A stretch of DNA of 64,000 nt from the NCBI GenBank assembly GCA_028820845.1, contig JAPPII010000013.1:1-64000 (forward strand). Reading direction: 5' to 3'. The notes under the pieces are model-generated. The model saw nothing but the letters and a program-made list of their open reading frames with translations. It did not search any database and was not told the DNA's origin. Positions 1 to 6,914 of this stretch are shown here, in pieces. The DNA comes from Candidatus Poribacteria bacterium (lineage in GTDB: Bacteria > Poribacteria > WGA-4E > WGA-3G). A program made the translations under genes and the position numbers. Positions within the stretch are counted from its first letter, which is position 1; every line of letters starts with the position of its first letter.

Positions 1-113
1 AAGCGACGACTGAGAATATATCAACTCATTTTCTAATTTTGCGTAAGTCCTATAGAGACAAACCCGGTCAGATTGTTATTGTATTAATTCAACCCTGTTT
101 GTATTGCGTTTCC

Positions 114-581
114 TCACTCAACAAAATCCTCAAGTACAATTACATTTAACTCACTAACTTCCAGTTTCTTCAAATCTTTGTCGTTAGTGACAAAGATATC
201 ACAGCCATTCTCTAATGCTGTAGCAACAATTAGAGCATCAGGGGTTCGGATGGATGGATATTCTGAACGCAGTTTTCCCGCCCGTTCCGCTATCTCATAG
301 GTAACTGTGAGCACTTGAATTGACAATGAGGAGAGAAATCGCTTGAAACGTTCAATCTCTGCTATCTTTCCATCTGCAAACGGTTTAGTTACAAATTCTG
401 TCACTGATATTGCTGAGAGGAAACCTTTAATTTTCTCATCATTAATTTTGTTGAATATTTCCTCTGCTAAAAGATAGTACGGTTCAATATCTTCAAGGTA
501 ATATATAAGAACTGGGGTATCCAAGAACACTGACGTGGCTTTGGAACCAGCTGAGTGAATATCTAAAACTTTCTGTTCCAT
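114..581 (-). CDS. PIN-domain ribonuclease, last gene of the putative defence cassette
   Basis: A 155-residue PIN-fold protein (VapC-like). PIN domains are Mg2+-dependent ribonucleases, often toxins of toxin-antitoxin systems. The acidic metal-site residues are visible: D21 in VFLDTPVLIYY, E62 in SVTEF, D115 in TPDALIVA and D134 in VTNDKDL, so the active site looks intact. The usual DTN is DTP here. The start ATG lies 19 nt inside the end of the HerA gene, so the two are translationally coupled. No VapB-type antitoxin gene is seen next to it. Its place at the end of a HerA-NurA operon suggests an effector or accessory nuclease rather than a free-standing toxin; that is inference. The 113 bases downstream hold nothing recognisable. 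Confidence 0.88.
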   Translation of the reverse strand: MEQKVLDIHSAGSKATSVFLDTPVLIYYLEDIEPYYLLAEEIFNKINDEKIKGFLSAISVTEFVTKPFADGKIAEIERFKRFLSSLSIQVLTVTYEIAERAGKLRSEYPSIRTPDALIVATALENGCDIFVTNDKDLKKLEVSELNVIVLEDFVE

Positions 582-2485
582 GCTTCCCTCTCTGACGCAA
601 GATAAGCATCAATTTCTTCAACGGTACTTCCCCATGTGCCTTTCATTGAGCCACGCATTTCCCGAATCAATTCTTTCTTTTCGTCGTGAGAAAGTTCAGA
701 AGTGACAGAAGGAATAGCTTTGGATTCAACTTTACTTTGTTGCTGTACTGAAATTTGATTCTCTTTCAAAAAATTATTAGGATCTGTGAAAGCGTTTAAG
801 AAAAGTGGGGTCCCGGCAAATGAGAGCGGTGAAACAGGACCAATAGTCATGAACGCGTAATCTCGAGACGCGATATCAAACGAAGATTGTGGATCGCGAA
901 AAAGTTGGTAAAGATCAAGGGCTTTACTACGGCCACCAACAAGATTACGCAATGCCTGAAACTCTGCGCCCATTGATAATCCAAAACCAAAGAAGTAAAT
1001 ACGCAACTGTTGGGCAATTTCACGGTGCAGACTCGACAAGGTTTGAGATATGAACATCCAACCTACACCATATTTACGAGTGGTTCGCACCGAATCAATA
1101 AAGATATTGCGGATTTGTTTCATTGTATCATTATCAGGGCTATCAGCAGGAGCCAAACGGTGAGCTTCATCCATTAGAACTAGGGTGTTAAGGTTTTGTT
1201 TTTCAGTGTAGGCGGATTCAGCTGATAGACGAATGCCTTCCAAAAGTCTCTTGATCACTAATGCCTGAATAGTGTCGTTCCAAAATAGATCTGTTTCACC
1301 TTTAATCGCTAAATCAATGATAATCAAAGGCTTGTTTCCCTTTTTGAACAAACTATATAGAATACTCTCTACAGCTTGTGCGCCTGCACGATTTGAATCA
1401 AATAATCGGGCAATTGGTGCCCAAATATCACGATAAAATTCATTAGGATCAGCACTTGTATGCGCGGATGAAAAACGCTTAAGAGGTCCCGGAGAACGGT
1501 AAAAAATTTGTTGAGTAGATTCTTGTCCGAGAAGGGACCAAGCCTCATTAAAAGATTCTCGCTTATGTAAATCCGATAGTTTAACTTTTTTCTTCTTAAG
1601 TTCGTCGATTAAAGTATTGGCTGCTATATCTCGATTTTCGGTTTTTGGAATGGTGAGTTTTTCAAAAAAAGGTGATTCATAAAGTATTTGTGCAAATAGT
1701 TCCCATCTATCTAAAACAAGGTTCTGGACGCTAATGACCTTTGTTGTTTTGTTCAGGCTGTCTAAGACCTCTTTTACCGGTAGTTGAAAACTACCCAAAA
1801 CTCCTGTTCCTGAAGCTTCTTGTGAAAATTCTCCCTGTGGATCAATTACCAATATTCCCATACTTTCATGGTGAGCATAAGCCAGCATAATCATTTTTGC
1901 CAAGACTGATTTACCAGAACCGGTCTTACCAAAAATTCCCAAGTGATATGCCTCGCCTGCTCCATCTTCGCCAGTATCAAAATGTTTAAACCATAGAGGT
2001 AATTTAGGCTTTGAGCCATAAACGCGTCCTAAATAGACAATCTGCTCCTTATATGGATAAAGTAACATATCCAAAACATCGTTATTTACTTGTTGAATCG
2101 GTGTTCCTGTAGATGGGACCGTCCCTAAACTACTGGGGCGATAACTGCCGTTTTCGTCGGAAAAGACAGCACTGACAATCATTTCACCTTGATGCGTGTC
2201 CTGCCGTTCACTGACTGCATCAACTTTGCCACGCTGCCGTATCAAACTCCGCATGGTAGGGTCTTCGTGCCAGATGTTCTTCAGGGCGATTTCAGTGATC
2301 TGTCCCAACGCGTAATGGTCAAGACCGTCTTGTATATAGTCGAAAATAGCCAATTCACCGACTAACTTCTTATCAACGGCAGTTGATAAAATATCCAAGG
2401 CAAGTTCCGTTGTAGAAGATGGTGAACCAATAACGCCAATTCTTTCGGCCTGATCAATCAATTGGCTTAATTTTTGATCGGACAT
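563..2485 (-). CDS. herA: HerA-type hexameric DNA translocase/ATPase
   Basis: A 640-residue HerA/FtsK-superfamily ATPase. The N-terminus (about 15-65) fits the HAS-barrel of HerA (GVIGSPSSTTE, LVGELAIFDY). The ATPase core has Walker A GKTGSGKS at 186-193 and Walker B LVLMDEAH at 435-442, followed by a sensor/arginine-finger region near RTTRKYGVGWMF. HerA proteins form hexameric rings that pump DNA to the partner nuclease NurA; archaeal pairs act in end resection, and several bacterial HerA-nuclease pairs are anti-phage. Here NurA is encoded 2 bp upstream and a PIN nuclease overlaps the 3' end, so the ATPase sits between two nucleases. The length is typical of bacterial HerA. Confident family call; the physiological role is inferred from context. 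Confidence 0.93.
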   Translation of the reverse strand: MSDQKLSQLIDQAERIGVIGSPSSTTELALDILSTAVDKKLVGELAIFDYIQDGLDHYALGQITEIALKNIWHEDPTMRSLIRQRGKVDAVSERQDTHQGEMIVSAVFSDENGSYRPSSLGTVPSTGTPIQQVNNDVLDMLLYPYKEQIVYLGRVYGSKPKLPLWFKHFDTGEDGAGEAYHLGIFGKTGSGKSVLAKMIMLAYAHHESMGILVIDPQGEFSQEASGTGVLGSFQLPVKEVLDSLNKTTKVISVQNLVLDRWELFAQILYESPFFEKLTIPKTENRDIAANTLIDELKKKKVKLSDLHKRESFNEAWSLLGQESTQQIFYRSPGPLKRFSSAHTSADPNEFYRDIWAPIARLFDSNRAGAQAVESILYSLFKKGNKPLIIIDLAIKGETDLFWNDTIQALVIKRLLEGIRLSAESAYTEKQNLNTLVLMDEAHRLAPADSPDNDTMKQIRNIFIDSVRTTRKYGVGWMFISQTLSSLHREIAQQLRIYFFGFGLSMGAEFQALRNLVGGRSKALDLYQLFRDPQSSFDIASRDYAFMTIGPVSPLSFAGTPLFLNAFTDPNNFLKENQISVQQQSKVESKAIPSVTSELSHDEKKELIREMRGSMKGTWGSTVEEIDAYLASEREAWNRKF

Positions 2486-2487
2486 TT

Positions 2488-3642
2488 TTACCTCCCTGAT
2501 TCTGTGCGGTAACTGTGAAGACCAACGAAAACGTCATCGATGTTTCCCTGATAGTCTTCTGCAAGATGTTGACTGGTTATCTGGCGAAAAGCGGGGACGG
2601 CCCTAGGTAAATGTTTAACCATTCTGTCTGCCAGATAAAGAGGGTATGGCTCCATAATAGCAGCTGTGCTGCACTGATCCTTGATACCTTGTAAAACGAT
2701 ACCTAATCTGGGGCGATTTTTGGCAATAGTTTGACTCATTTCCAAACGTAAAGCTGGCATATAAGCGTGAGGTCGATAATAAAGAAAATGGACCCTGTTC
2801 AAAGATTGTAAAACTTGCTCAACGATTTGGTCTATCTCGTTTAAGGTAGCAACATCAGTGAAATCGTTAATTACTGAAGTGCCGAGATGCCAGGAGTAGG
2901 TAGAGAGTAAAGCAGGAGTTGTATACTCACCCGGTTCCAAAATAGAACTTAGCAATCCGCGATCATCATGAGAGTCGGGCCATCCCAATTTTTTGCCTAT
3001 TTCCCTACGAGAGGTATACTTAGGTATAGCTATCCATTGCCGGTCATTACGTGGAGGATTTAAAAGGCAGTAATACGCCTCAAGAAAAGACTGGATTTTA
3101 TTAACTAAATATCCTTTAACGGTTTTGAGATGAGGCCATTCCTTGGCTTTGCTAAAACCTTGATTAAAGTAAATGACAGGAGTGGTTAATGAACCATCCA
3201 AAAGAACAAGTTCATGAGGGGCTTGTTGGGCTAAAATCAACTCCATTCCAATCATCCCTGCGCGTAAGATGGAACTCGTGTCGGGATTATGAGTTTCAGT
3301 TTCGACATGGACAAAATGATTAGGTTCCGGCCAAAAACGTTTTTCGGAAGGGGGGGTCAAACCCTCAACTGCTACTGCGCCAGCTACCACCAAATCTGTC
3401 GCTAAAAGTCTTTCAACAGCGTAGGACCCGTCAACACCACAAGTAGTTGGGCTTTGTGTTACAGGCAAGCTGGAATCATGCATCACCAAACCAGAGTCAA
3501 TAAGTTGCTTGCGCCATACTTCTCTTTTGTTTCGCAGCTCTTCAAAAGATTCTAATAACTCTTGCCCTATTCCTTCAGTTCGTTTAAGGACCTCATCAAC
3601 GAGAGATTTTGGGAGTTCACTAAAATCAACCGATTCGTTCAT
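2488..3642 (-). CDS. nurA: NurA-domain 5'-3' nuclease, HerA partner
   Basis: A 384-residue protein with a NurA nuclease domain. The first catalytic aspartate is D71 in CGVDGSYAVERL, the second D149 in LVLLDGSLTTP; both are NurA hallmarks (RNase H-like fold, Mn2+-dependent nuclease working with HerA). An N-terminal coiled-coil-like region (about 10-50, rich in E/L/K/R) precedes the domain. The start ATG is 2 bp after the stop of the DruA-type gene, and its own stop is 2 bp before herA, so translation is almost certainly coupled along the operon. NurA homologues in bacteria are much rarer than in archaea and are often carried in mobile or defence loci. The cassette context argues for DNA degradation or restriction over housekeeping repair. 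Confidence 0.88.
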   Translation of the reverse strand: MNESVDFSELPKSLVDEVLKRTEGIGQELLESFEELRNKREVWRKQLIDSGLVMHDSSLPVTQSPTTCGVDGSYAVERLLATDLVVAGAVAVEGLTPPSEKRFWPEPNHFVHVETETHNPDTSSILRAGMIGMELILAQQAPHELVLLDGSLTTPVIYFNQGFSKAKEWPHLKTVKGYLVNKIQSFLEAYYCLLNPPRNDRQWIAIPKYTSRREIGKKLGWPDSHDDRGLLSSILEPGEYTTPALLSTYSWHLGTSVINDFTDVATLNEIDQIVEQVLQSLNRVHFLYYRPHAYMPALRLEMSQTIAKNRPRLGIVLQGIKDQCSTAAIMEPYPLYLADRMVKHLPRAVPAFRQITSQHLAEDYQGNIDDVFVGLHSYRTESGR

Positions 3643-3644
3643 TA

Positions 3645-5669
3645 TTATTTTACTCCTTCACTATCTACTTCGGGTAAGAGGAGGTCTACGGAGAATTGAA
3701 CCTTCGATTTTAATTCCTTAAGCAAATTGCGAATCCACACTGCTCCCTTGTCTCCGTAGTTGATTGCTTTGATCAGTTTCTCAAAGTCGGCAATTATGCT
3801 TCTGATACCCCTCAAGTAGTTGCTGTAACCTCTAATTGCCTCGTTGCTAATAGCATAGGATCGAGAAGTCGTTGTGAATGCTATCTTTTTTGTGGTACAT
3901 TCGTCTATGAATTCCTCGTAGGTGAGATGCTCTGAGAGTTGATGTTTACTAAAAGTATTTTCGAGCGTTTGCCTTTTTTCTATTGCTTTGATGACAAGTT
4001 GCTCGCGTTCCCTTTCTTCATCACCAGTTTTGGCTTTCTTTATGCTCTGCTGGTTAATACTCGAGTTCGCTTGTTTAATTGCAAAAAAACTGCTCTGGTT
4101 ACCTTCCCATAACTTCCACTCTTGAGGTTCCCACGTCCTATAGTATTTATTTTTTTTACTGTGAGGCAGCAACCATCTTTCACGATACCACTTGAATAGT
4201 TCACTTACGGGTTGATCGTAATAGTGCAGTTCTCGGTCATTACCACATAGGAAAGCGCGAGTATTTTCTGCCAATGGTGCCACATATATTTCTCGCTTAA
4301 TTCCATGATTAAGCCAACTTTTAGGTAACCCTAACTTACCAAGTGCCTTTTGAACCACCTCTTGTTTGTTTCTAAATCCTGACCCCCAAGATTCATGGCT
4401 AGCTGTGGCAGTAGCATTTGATTTCGCATACGCTATTAGTGAACCGTAAATTCCATTGGAGAAGTGAAATTCACCGAATCCCTGCGTGTGTCCTACGCGC
4501 TGAAAAACAAGTCGTTTCTCAAGATGTTCTATCTCAATATCCGGCTGCGCTGATAGATTTGGTTCTGCACATTTGAGACGGTTATACATTGACGATCTTT
4601 CAAGCGCAGAAGTAGTTGTTATCATTGCGATATCGCCAGCATTTTCTCGTTTTCGAATTACTGATTTTTTTCCTTTGTATTTGTGCTTGAATGCTTCACG
4701 AACTTCATTACTGGTGGCCAATAGTGCTATGAGTTTACCGCCTAACAAAAACGAATAAGGTGGAACTGCTCCCAATACAAAAGCATCTACAACATGATGG
4801 AGTCTCTCTTTTCTATCTTCATGATTCCAACCTACCCATTGATCACGATGTCTCAAACTAAAAACGGGATCTCCCAAACCGAACAAACCCATCACTTTAT
4901 TTGTATGTTGGTCCATTACAAGGTATCTGAGTCTTCGACCATACCCTGAAGATACTGGTATACTCCAATGTAAGCCAGCGTATCGAAACAAAAGTGCTTC
5001 TTTTGACCCCGCATGTACTTCAACAAGTTTAGGATTGATTTTATCCGGGACAATCTCTTCTCCAGAAGCAAAACATTGTAGTAAAGATGGCTCATGTTCA
5101 ATAAGACCTTTTTTATTTTCCTCAATTTTGTGGCAAACTGCCTCATTATGCAGTTTCCTAATTTTTCTCTTATCAAGGTATTCAGGTAAGTAAACTTCGT
5201 TGTCTTGAACTTTAAAACCTTGGGTTTTAAGAGAATTTGTAATGCGAGTTTTAAGGGTTTTGGCGTATACAGGACTAGCGTATAAGGTGTTAAGGATGGT
5301 TGATACTTCTTCATCCGCGTGGAAGTGTGCCTGTAGCGATTCAAAGACACCAGCATCACACCAGTGCCTAAAACGTTGGTATATAGTATGCATGTTGCCA
5401 TACTTATCAGGTAAATCACTCCAGGTGGTTTCCTCTTTTGCTAGCCACGAAATAGCAGAGAGGAACAAACGACATTTTTCTGGACTTCCAACGCGGACCT
5501 TTGGGTAATCAGCGAGAAAAAGCTGTATTTGATCCCAAACAGCATCCGTTATTTGCCATGGTAGTTCTTGGGAATTGTCTGTTTTTTTCTTTTTCATATG
5601 CGTATGGTATTCAAATTTGCTTGGGCGTTTCTTGTGAGCAAAAACCCTTCGTCGGGGGAACAAGGTCAT
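3645..5669 (-). CDS. DUF4338/DruA-type protein with N-terminal IS5-type (DUF4096) transposase domain
   Basis: A 674-residue open frame with two unrelated parts. Residues about 39-116 match the N-terminal domain of IS5-family transposases (DUF4096): ITDAVWDQIQLFL, TTWSDLPDKYG, IYQRFRHWCDAGVFE. Residues about 215-335 match DUF4338, the DruA family of the Druantia anti-phage system: RRLRYLV, SLRHRDQWVGW, RKERLHHVVDAFVLG. The remaining C-terminal half (VGHTQGFGEFHF, HESWGSGFRN, a charged C-terminal coil) fits the longer DruA-like proteins. No DDE catalytic core of IS5 is present, so this is not a transposase. The start is uncertain: M1 or M25 (position 5597); neither has a clear ribosome-binding site, and M25 loses nothing of the domains. 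It is co-directional with rpn 22 bp upstream and nurA 2 bp downstream. Whether the fusion is ancient or a recent IS scar cannot be told from one sequence. Confidence 0.8.
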   Translation of the reverse strand: MTLFPRRRVFAHKKRPSKFEYHTHMKKKKTDNSQELPWQITDAVWDQIQLFLADYPKVRVGSPEKCRLFLSAISWLAKEETTWSDLPDKYGNMHTIYQRFRHWCDAGVFESLQAHFHADEEVSTILNTLYASPVYAKTLKTRITNSLKTQGFKVQDNEVYLPEYLDKRKIRKLHNEAVCHKIEENKKGLIEHEPSLLQCFASGEEIVPDKINPKLVEVHAGSKEALLFRYAGLHWSIPVSSGYGRRLRYLVMDQHTNKVMGLFGLGDPVFSLRHRDQWVGWNHEDRKERLHHVVDAFVLGAVPPYSFLLGGKLIALLATSNEVREAFKHKYKGKKSVIRKRENAGDIAMITTTSALERSSMYNRLKCAEPNLSAQPDIEIEHLEKRLVFQRVGHTQGFGEFHFSNGIYGSLIAYAKSNATATASHESWGSGFRNKQEVVQKALGKLGLPKSWLNHGIKREIYVAPLAENTRAFLCGNDRELHYYDQPVSELFKWYRERWLLPHSKKNKYYRTWEPQEWKLWEGNQSSFFAIKQANSSINQQSIKKAKTGDEEREREQLVIKAIEKRQTLENTFSKHQLSEHLTYEEFIDECTTKKIAFTTTSRSYAISNEAIRGYSNYLRGIRSIIADFEKLIKAINYGDKGAVWIRNLLKELKSKVQFSVDLLLPEVDSEGVK

Positions 5670-5691
5670 TTACGTACAGATGTTACAATAT

Positions 5692-6720
5692 TCAGCCCTG
5701 AATATCTTCAAGGCTTTGGGCGGTCATCACCCGCTCTAAAAGGATATCAAGGTGTGAAAGATTTTGGATGGAGGTGATCCGATCGGTGAGTGTTTCTGGG
5801 ACGTTCTGAAATCGGATCCGTAGAAGCTGTAGGATTGCTGCCTGTTTGCCTTCTATGATGCCCTCGGCTTTGCCTTGTTCTATAAGGAATTCAGCCGCTG
5901 TTTGTGCCATGATTACTACCTCACTTTCATCTTGACTATGGCGTTTGACCAATTCTATTAACTCTTCACGCTCCTCAGCTGACCGACGATGCAGAATCAA
6001 TTGGATAAAATAGAGAAGTGCTGGACGCACTTGCGATACTTGTGCTTCATCCAACCGACTTAACGCCGATACCGCGGATGCTAACGCTTCACTGAGTGCT
6101 GATTTCCCCGAACGCTCTTTTTGAAGAACACTTAACAACCACCCTAATGGATGCCCAGGCTTCGTTAGAGTCTCTCGATCTGCTGTTTTTACTTCTAAAA
6201 ATAGGGTGTCAAACGTCGGCACAAATCGCTCCAGGATTTCGGGGACCTCCATTATTGCCGTCAGCGACAACGGAGAAGTCCACCGCCGATCCCCTGTGTA
6301 AAATACTATCGGTAAGATCGGATCCAAACGTCGTCTCGACCCAGCCTCCGACTGCCACTCCCGCCACTGCCCTTGCCATATCTCCATCATATAAGACAAC
6401 ATCCGAAATCCCATCGTAGGATCTACCGTCGATTGATGCTCAATCAGAATATAGATAAGGAGTTCTTCGTTCTCAGTCGTCCTCTGAAACGGCACACGTA
6501 GCAGGACATCCGACTCCCGCTCCCGCAACGCATCGGAGATAAAACTCCGATTCTGCTGCGTACCTCTGCTGAAATCAAGGAGCCCTACAAGGTCAGGCGC
6601 GATGATTTCTACTAAGCCTCGCACATACTCCGGGTCCTGGAGCAACCGTCTGATACTTCGGTCAGGGAAATGTTCTATCAGGATATCAGAAGGTTCAAGA
6701 GATTTCGGGGCTTTTAACAT
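5692..6720 (-). CDS. Rpn-family recombination-promoting nuclease / putative transposase
   Basis: A 342-residue member of the Rpn/PD-(D/E)XK family (formerly transposase_31). The nuclease core is visible as D71 in RERESDVLLRV followed by E94 and Q96 in ILIEHQST, with NRSFISDALRE just before. The C-terminal FLIEQGKAEGIIEGK stretch is typical of the family. E. coli Rpn proteins are Mg2+-dependent DNA nucleases that promote RecA-independent recombination. It is the first gene after the promoter at 6771-6799 and lies 22 bp before the DruA-type gene, so it is probably co-transcribed with the HerA-NurA cassette. A paralogue lies at 29795-30895 without that company, so membership in a functional system is not assured. 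Confidence 0.9.
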   Translation of the reverse strand: MLKAPKSLEPSDILIEHFPDRSIRRLLQDPEYVRGLVEIIAPDLVGLLDFSRGTQQNRSFISDALRERESDVLLRVPFQRTTENEELLIYILIEHQSTVDPTMGFRMLSYMMEIWQGQWREWQSEAGSRRRLDPILPIVFYTGDRRWTSPLSLTAIMEVPEILERFVPTFDTLFLEVKTADRETLTKPGHPLGWLLSVLQKERSGKSALSEALASAVSALSRLDEAQVSQVRPALLYFIQLILHRRSAEEREELIELVKRHSQDESEVVIMAQTAAEFLIEQGKAEGIIEGKQAAILQLLRIRFQNVPETLTDRITSIQNLSHLDILLERVMTAQSLEDIQG

Positions 6721-6770
6721 AAGTACCTAAATTTTCAATCCATTCAGACTGAAGATGAGATTTGAAGAAT

Positions 6771-6799
6771 AGTATAGCCTCAGTGCTCCTAGAAATCAA
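6771..6799 (-). promoter_or_regulatory. Sigma70-like promoter of the rpn-DruA-nurA-herA-PIN cassette
   Basis: Read on the minus strand: TTGATT, a 17-base spacer, TATACT. The -10 box is about 50 bases before the rpn start codon, with AGGT as a weak ribosome-binding site. No comparable promoter was noticed inside the cassette, which supports one transcript starting with rpn. A 7-bp hairpin at 6831-6846 on the far side may end transcription coming from leuD, though it has no T tract. Confidence 0.55.
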
Positions 6800-6914
6800 G
6801 TTGTTTTTTCATGGGGGCGGGGCCTTTTAGCCCTCTTGTAAGAGGGAACACCAATTCCTGACTCCTTCAGGACTTTCTCAGCTTCCTTCGCTGGCGAAGA
6901 AATCCGATACAAGA

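Follow-up and report, generated by a model that had tools for sequence, protein, structure and literature searches.

Locus organisation and gene assignment

The window analysed here is a stretch of 64,000 nucleotides (bases 1-64000 of contig JAPPII010000013.1) from the 5.7 Mb genome of a Candidatus Poribacteria bacterium (genome G000). The element under study is a run of minus-strand genes at the start of this window, encoding a DruA-family protein, the nuclease NurA, the translocase HerA and a PIN RNase, with a gene for an Rpn-family protein upstream. The initial annotation had read all five genes as a single candidate anti-phage cassette. The five open reading frames were found where that annotation had placed them, and their identities were backed by profile matches (Table 1). 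DruA, NurA and HerA were upheld as a core, but Rpn proved to be a separate resident of the site and PIN lies outside the ancestral set. The reported spacing (gaps of 22, 2 and 2 bp and a 19-bp overlap) was right for the frames as read, but the Rpn-DruA gap becomes about 94 bp with the corrected DruA start. The sigma70-like promoter was discarded as evidence: promoter-like sites (10 found) were below chance expectation (15.8) and have no evidential value.

The DruA frame is open from base 5669. Its start was reassigned to codon 25 (base 5597), because the DruA proteins of two relatives begin at an ATG matching this base and because the DNA upstream of base 5616 is shared with a genome lacking the cassette (G056, see below).

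In the NurA alignment, the acidic residues of the GVDGS and LLDGS motifs were invariant. The adjoining HerA ATPase has intact motor motifs: Walker A (residues 186-193), Walker B (near 435-442), the arginine-finger region (467) and the glutamine sensor region (479). The sole PDB sequence match of the window HerA was TdpA (E 9e-4), a component of a modification-dependent system. The acidic residues D21, E62, D115 and D134 of PIN are present. The contig starts just beyond PIN, inside a repeat, and genes further downstream of PIN are therefore invisible in the window.

Table 1. Features of the DruA-NurA-HerA locus, in window coordinates
Feature	Position	Strand	Basis
druA; DUF4096, DruA/DUF4338 and C-terminal helical extension	3645..5597	-	650 aa from corrected start; PF14236 8e-110, PADLOC DruA 1e-111
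DUF4096 domain (IS5 transposase ORFA type), N-terminus of DruA	5334..5552	-	PF13340 1e-16
DruA core, putative GNAT-like fold	4242..5174	-	PF14236; AlphaFold2 model of relative L130 and Foldseek
nurA nuclease	2488..3642	-	384 aa; PF09376 4e-8; alignment
herA translocase	563..2485	-	640 aa; PF01935 (DUF87) 2.5e-14; motifs, alignment
Antitoxin-derived HerA tail, residues about 586-640	563..730	-	AF2212-like antitoxin C-terminal half; 71% identity across 52 aa (E 6e-25)
PIN RNase (VapC-like toxin) of resident antitoxin-PIN pair	114..581	-	PF01850 1e-20
Left cassette boundary against cassette-less same-species genome G056	5615..5616	.	97.3% DNA identity ends there
Rpn-family PD-(D/E)XK protein, judged non-member	5692..6720	-	Transposase_31 5e-31; TIGR01784
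Repeat element end, breaking the contig just past PIN	25..50	-	26-bp motif, 15 exact copies in genome, many at contig ends

Recurrence of DruA with NurA and HerA

DruA was surveyed in about 490 genomes, using the Pfam DruA model on three overlapping samples spread over the bacteria and a search of the phylum with the window DruA. Short transposon-linked DUF4338 proteins (about 300 amino acids) and phage orphans were treated as groups of their own and kept separate. Fifteen loci with full-length DruA were obtained, and NurA was encoded next door or one gene away in 14 of them, which excludes chance for the core trio. HerA belonged to the same run in 13 of these 14 loci (two of the 13 being cut by contig ends); the fourteenth (G474) was cut inside NurA, and the remainder of NurA was found with HerA on another contig. 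The fifteenth locus (G389) carried a 1807-amino-acid DruE-like helicase instead of NurA, and its DruA matched the DruA of a Druantia locus on a Meiothermus plasmid at every aligned position. At the genome level, DruA and NurA were associated with p about 1e-13, or 1.6e-5 without the six genomes that had supplied the NurA models. The question posed by the initial annotation, whether DruA homologues neighbour herA or nurA elsewhere, was thus answered positively in many genomes, and its proposal that HerA-NurA stands in for the DruE helicase describes a recurrent arrangement. By genome comparison, these loci demonstrate a conserved DruA-NurA-HerA module.

The module occurs in two gene orders, DruA-NurA-HerA and NurA-HerA-DruA. 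Its HerA proteins belong to subfamilies that have drifted far apart (the divergent types are 19-21% identical to the window HerA), and NurA is likewise split. The divergent NurA was confirmed by the Pfam NurA model in three of five loci (L078, L080 and L084), and the assignment of the other two (L036 and L081) as NurA-like rests on their position, their motifs and their resemblance to other divergent NurA. Profile-profile comparison of the two NurA groups returned a probability of 2.5%, from alignments too shallow to be informative. The trio is also carried by the viral contigs L130, L131 and L133 (the DruA of L133 being cut by the contig end), and on a Caldilineaceae contig (Chloroflexota) a NurA-like frame begins after DruA, close to the contig end. 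Complete three-gene loci include L104 (6983-11004) and L130 (2358-6423). Other copies have defence genes as neighbours: restriction-modification (L037, L080, L131), NACHT (L078), AbiEii (L104) and HEPN/HepT-type genes (L102, L104). Nmad3, a nucleotide-modification-associated domain, adjoins the copy of G016 (L034), in this one locus only.

Other associations of DUF4338 were recorded. A mobile-element branch consists of DruA-like N-terminal domains of about 300 amino acids beside or fused to transposase-like proteins (L105, L082, L083, L085-L087, L089, L107); one of these genomes (G427, L105) holds at least five equal-scoring copies of a 755-amino-acid frame. Inovirus-like viral contigs (L137 and L138 5842-7041; Zot-like ATPase, assigned by eye) carry a 399-amino-acid DruA with neither HerA-NurA nor DruE. 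DruA-type proteins of about 660 amino acids lie beside an ATP-binding protein in L046 (2996-6738) and L038 (6755-10454); in L038 this neighbour is a GHKL-type histidine-kinase-like ATPase, and in L046 a large DEAD/DEAH helicase is encoded close by as well.

Comparison with known defence systems

The window DruA belongs to the same family as that of Druantia type I, as its Pfam and PADLOC matches indicate (Table 1), and it is 34-40% identical to the DruA of Druantia I loci on Nitrosococcus, Pseudomonas and Meiothermus plasmids. The rest of Druantia I is missing from the window: HerA-NurA stands in the place of DruE, which is absent from the window cassette and from beside 14 of the 15 related DruA genes; the only match to the MrfA Zn-binding (MZB) domain in the window genome was a 200-amino-acid frame on another contig; and no PADLOC match to DruB, DruC or DruD was obtained among the five window proteins, with the same library finding DruB and DruD in the true Druantia loci L043 and L045. 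The window system is not Druantia. In a maximum-likelihood tree of 31 DruA proteins, the six DruE-linked members (two of them the same sequence) formed one clade (100/99), which was nearest to a HerA-NurA-linked clade (88/77), and a single change separates the two associations; the branches are long and the root is uncertain, and the partner swap may have run in either direction.

Like Sir2-HerA and DUF4297-HerA, the window system sets a HerA translocase beside a nuclease, a likely motor-nuclease complex, and DUF4297-HerA acts as a nuclease on dsDNA and confers protection from phage (PMC11291478). The window nuclease is NurA instead, and DruA is a third partner. No Sir2 or DUF4297 domain was detected in the five window proteins with Pfam and PADLOC profiles, PADLOC gave no match for the NurA of these cassettes, and the window HerA is only distantly related to the PADLOC HerA models. 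The pair resembles the HerA-NurA of archaea and Deinococcus-Thermus in its adjacent genes and conserved motifs but differs from it in being DruA-linked, patchy and mobile; the nearest curated archaeal HerA models scored far below cut-off on the window HerA, and a NurA search of plasmids returned distant matches only.

Neither the components nor the theme of HerA with a nuclease is new; what appears to be undescribed is the recurrence of the trio as a system and the fusion of HerA to an antitoxin (see below). The claim of the initial annotation that no described system has this gene set agrees with the literature searched, in which no paper linking Druantia with NurA was found, although most subscription papers lay outside the scope of the search and an earlier description is possible.

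The leuD site and cassette mobility

Among 85 genomes of the phylum, the window NurA was present in four, exactly those with a close full-length DruA. Two of them, G062 (same genus as the window genome) and G031, have the order leuC-leuD-DruA-NurA-HerA-PIN-HAD hydrolase. In G016, DruA-NurA-HerA is located at another site and the contig ends inside HerA, so that the region of the HerA tail is beyond view.

The same-species genome G056 carries leuD, Rpn (98% identical) and the HAD gene without the cassette, and its 97.3% DNA identity to the window extends up to base 5616, ending 18 bases before the ATG of the relatives' DruA. Rpn is therefore an older resident, and the cassette was either inserted in G000 or lost in G056. 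Another cassette-less genome, G083, has an Rpn 78% identical at the same site, and Rpn is not adjacent to DruA in G062, G031 or G016 (G062 retains only an Rpn fragment upstream of leuC). Membership of Rpn in the system, as originally proposed, was ruled out by the same-site copies without the cassette. Across 20 poribacterial genomes (L109-L128), the interval after leuD (window 5692-6914) is a small hotspot, occupied in different genomes by Rpn, antitoxin-PIN pairs, lone antitoxins, the DruA cassette or nothing.

Between G000 and G031, which belong to different genera, synonymous divergence (dS) was 0.55 for NurA and 0.31 for PIN, and the adjacent leuD was saturated; between G062 and G031, the values were 0.47 (NurA), 0.29 (PIN) and 1.93 (leuD). 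The low dS of NurA and PIN relative to leuD indicates that the cassette, including PIN, moved between genera into the same site, and these substitution rates demonstrate its mobility and horizontal transfer. Ratios of nonsynonymous to synonymous divergence (dN/dS) were 0.06-0.11 for NurA, 0.09-0.11 for the HerA core, 0.10-0.13 for the DruA core, 0.19-0.27 for PIN, 0.13-0.28 for the HerA tail (60 codons only) and 0.29-0.42 for DUF4096.

Capture of half an antitoxin by HerA

At the leuD site of the cassette-less genomes G084, G080 and G045, an 86-amino-acid protein is followed by PIN with a 19-bp overlap; four other cassette-less genomes have the 86-amino-acid protein without PIN at this site. 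The protein is an AF2212-like antitoxin (PF01954, 1e-10 to 1e-8), and the last ~55 residues of the window HerA match its C-terminal half. DNA homology to the antitoxin-PIN locus (78%) starts at window base 730 and continues through PIN. The first 33 residues of the antitoxin had no significant match in any cassette locus, and the HerA proteins of G470 and G483 stop just before the tail, which is absent. HerA has taken the place of the antitoxin, because one antitoxin half constitutes its tail, the other half is gone and HerA elsewhere lacks this tail. The alignments demonstrate an in-frame fusion of HerA with the second part of the antitoxin, the cassette having replaced the first part of the antitoxin gene. 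Compared with the intact AF2212-like antitoxin/PIN (VapBC-type) pair, the window thus retains the toxin, half of the antitoxin and the overlap, but has no free antitoxin. Judged from these loci, the HerA-PIN overlap is the inherited antitoxin-toxin overlap, and PIN is the captured toxin of a resident toxin-antitoxin pair.

From VapB-type antitoxins generally, the C-terminal half of the antitoxin is presumed to bind the toxin, and the HerA tail probably neutralises PIN. PIN had been put forward earlier as a possible abortive-infection effector: it was not part of the ancestral set, but the antitoxin tail of HerA gives the idea a concrete basis.

Features of the DruA protein

An N-terminal DUF4096 domain, overlooked in the initial annotation, is limited in the DruA alignment to the three leuD-site cassettes (G000, G062 and G031). 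IS5-family transposase ORFA has the same domain; in the leuD-site DruA it is fused to DruA, the catalytic part of the transposase is missing and no insertion sequence ends were found. The possibility that DruA is an insertion sequence-borne gene was rejected: along its whole length, the DNA of the DUF4096 region was only about 64-66% identical to the IS5-type ORFA copies, and no terminal repeat in common was detected. The contig-end motif (Table 1) was missing from the fetched IS5-type ORFA loci, save for one lone match, and therefore marks a different repeat.

The DruA of the viral contig L130 was modelled with AlphaFold2 (mean predicted local distance difference test score 86.7). Nearly all of its top Foldseek matches in the PDB were GNAT acyltransferases, but these were weak (E 0.01-0.3, TM to target up to 0.55). 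The model agrees with a remark in one of three papers found to mention DUF4338, according to which it is a GNAT domain (PMC10853773). A PDB sequence search with DruA gave nothing credible. In the BFVD database, the giant-virus proteins A0A3G4ZXG3 (Faunusvirus) and A0A5K0UAJ3 (Yasminevirus) strongly resembled the window DruA model (Foldseek E 3e-16 and 7e-14).

Of the core proteins, DruA has diverged most, with 68-78% identity across these cassettes against 93% for NurA, and its dS (0.85-1.78) is above that of its partners. This divergence suggests that DruA has been exchanged separately from its partners, as might be expected of a specificity subunit. The helical C-terminal extension of the window DruA (residues 527-674, about 3648-4091) is common only to G016 and is missing in the nearer G062 and G031, a distribution which suggests that DruA ends have been exchanged between cassettes.

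Proposed function and alternative explanations

An antiviral role of the system is very probable. On balance, we favour a mobile system against DNA invaders, in which HerA, a hexameric dsDNA translocase, and NurA would form a motor-nuclease that degrades invading dsDNA, and DruA, possibly GNAT-like, would act as a recognition or licensing subunit choosing which DNA is attacked; for this selector role taken by itself, the case is evenly poised. In the poribacterial leuD-site version, the antitoxin half of HerA would add a second layer by restraining the PIN RNase: a virus that destroyed, inhibited or sequestered HerA, or loss of the cassette, would free PIN, which would cut RNA and arrest the cell.

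Several points weigh against this proposal. HerA-NurA pairs are classically ascribed to DNA end processing. The association is weaker in reverse: pairs of the same subfamilies occur without an adjacent DruA in G120 (L168 5117-8617), G228 (L169 984-3843) and G195 (L171 5368-8687), so the pair can do without DruA. The resemblance of DruA to GNAT proteins is weak (best PDB E 0.01), the HerA tail may have no effect, PIN may be inactive in vivo, and further genes of the system may be missing at the contig end beside PIN.

The fusion might serve addiction only, as a by-product of the landing site that makes the cassette hard to lose, with no virus sensing and with DNA degradation by DruA and HerA-NurA as the sole defence. 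This is an unlikely but serious alternative, given that the fusion is confined to poribacterial leuD-site cassettes, other loci having neither tail nor PIN, and that same-site transfer between genera with PIN and tail fits a selfish, self-stabilising cassette. However, toxin-antitoxin pairs commonly serve in abortive infection, and any viral inhibitor that targets a defence motor would also reach an antitoxin joined to it; addiction and the favoured antiviral system are not exclusive. A more elaborate two-tier system, in which DruA would mark or recognise DNA by an acyltransferase-type activity, HerA-NurA would destroy non-self DNA and HerA would be the antitoxin of PIN, triggering arrest on viral attack, is rather improbable. 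We consider modification-restriction, with DruA as a DNA-modifying GNAT enzyme that marks self DNA and HerA-NurA destroying unmarked DNA, improbable. The putative GNAT-like fold and the remark on DUF4338, Nmad3 beside one copy and the TdpA match of HerA are in its favour, and the phage Mu Mom protein is a precedent for a GNAT-like DNA-modifying enzyme; yet the fold match is weak, Nmad3 was seen once, the acyl donor, active site and modified base are hypothetical, and the persistence of HerA-NurA without DruA would be dangerous if DruA protected self DNA.

A repair or recombination module, in which HerA-NurA processes broken ends, DruA is an accessory and there is no antiviral role, is improbable too. 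HerA-NurA was for many years assigned to end resection in archaea and Deinococcus (discussed in PMC12977600), but recent biochemistry argues against resection (PMC12977600). In the same study, HerA-NurA of T. kodakarensis cut both strands of dsDNA, and an antiviral function was proposed for it. The rarity of the cassette in the phylum and its absence from the same-species genome also speak against repair, as do its transfer between genera, viral carriage, defence neighbours and the sharing of DruA with Druantia. Chance juxtaposition of unrelated genes, which holds for Rpn and, as regards its origin, for PIN but for no other gene, is of negligible probability and is already refuted for the core trio by its recurrence in at least 14 genomes and by the association statistics given above.

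Significance

DruA, the marker of Druantia, is tied in this sample to HerA-NurA far more often than to DruE, which raises the possibility that Druantia I is a single branch within a broader family of DruA-based defences. The association provides a plausible antiviral setting for bacterial HerA-NurA pairs. If the two-tier system were real, its HerA would be, to our knowledge, the first known DNA-processing defence motor carrying an antitoxin domain. In the leuD-site cassettes, the capture of half an antitoxin by a defence gene can be reconstructed, and through such a capture a DNA-degrading system may directly acquire an abortive-infection backup.

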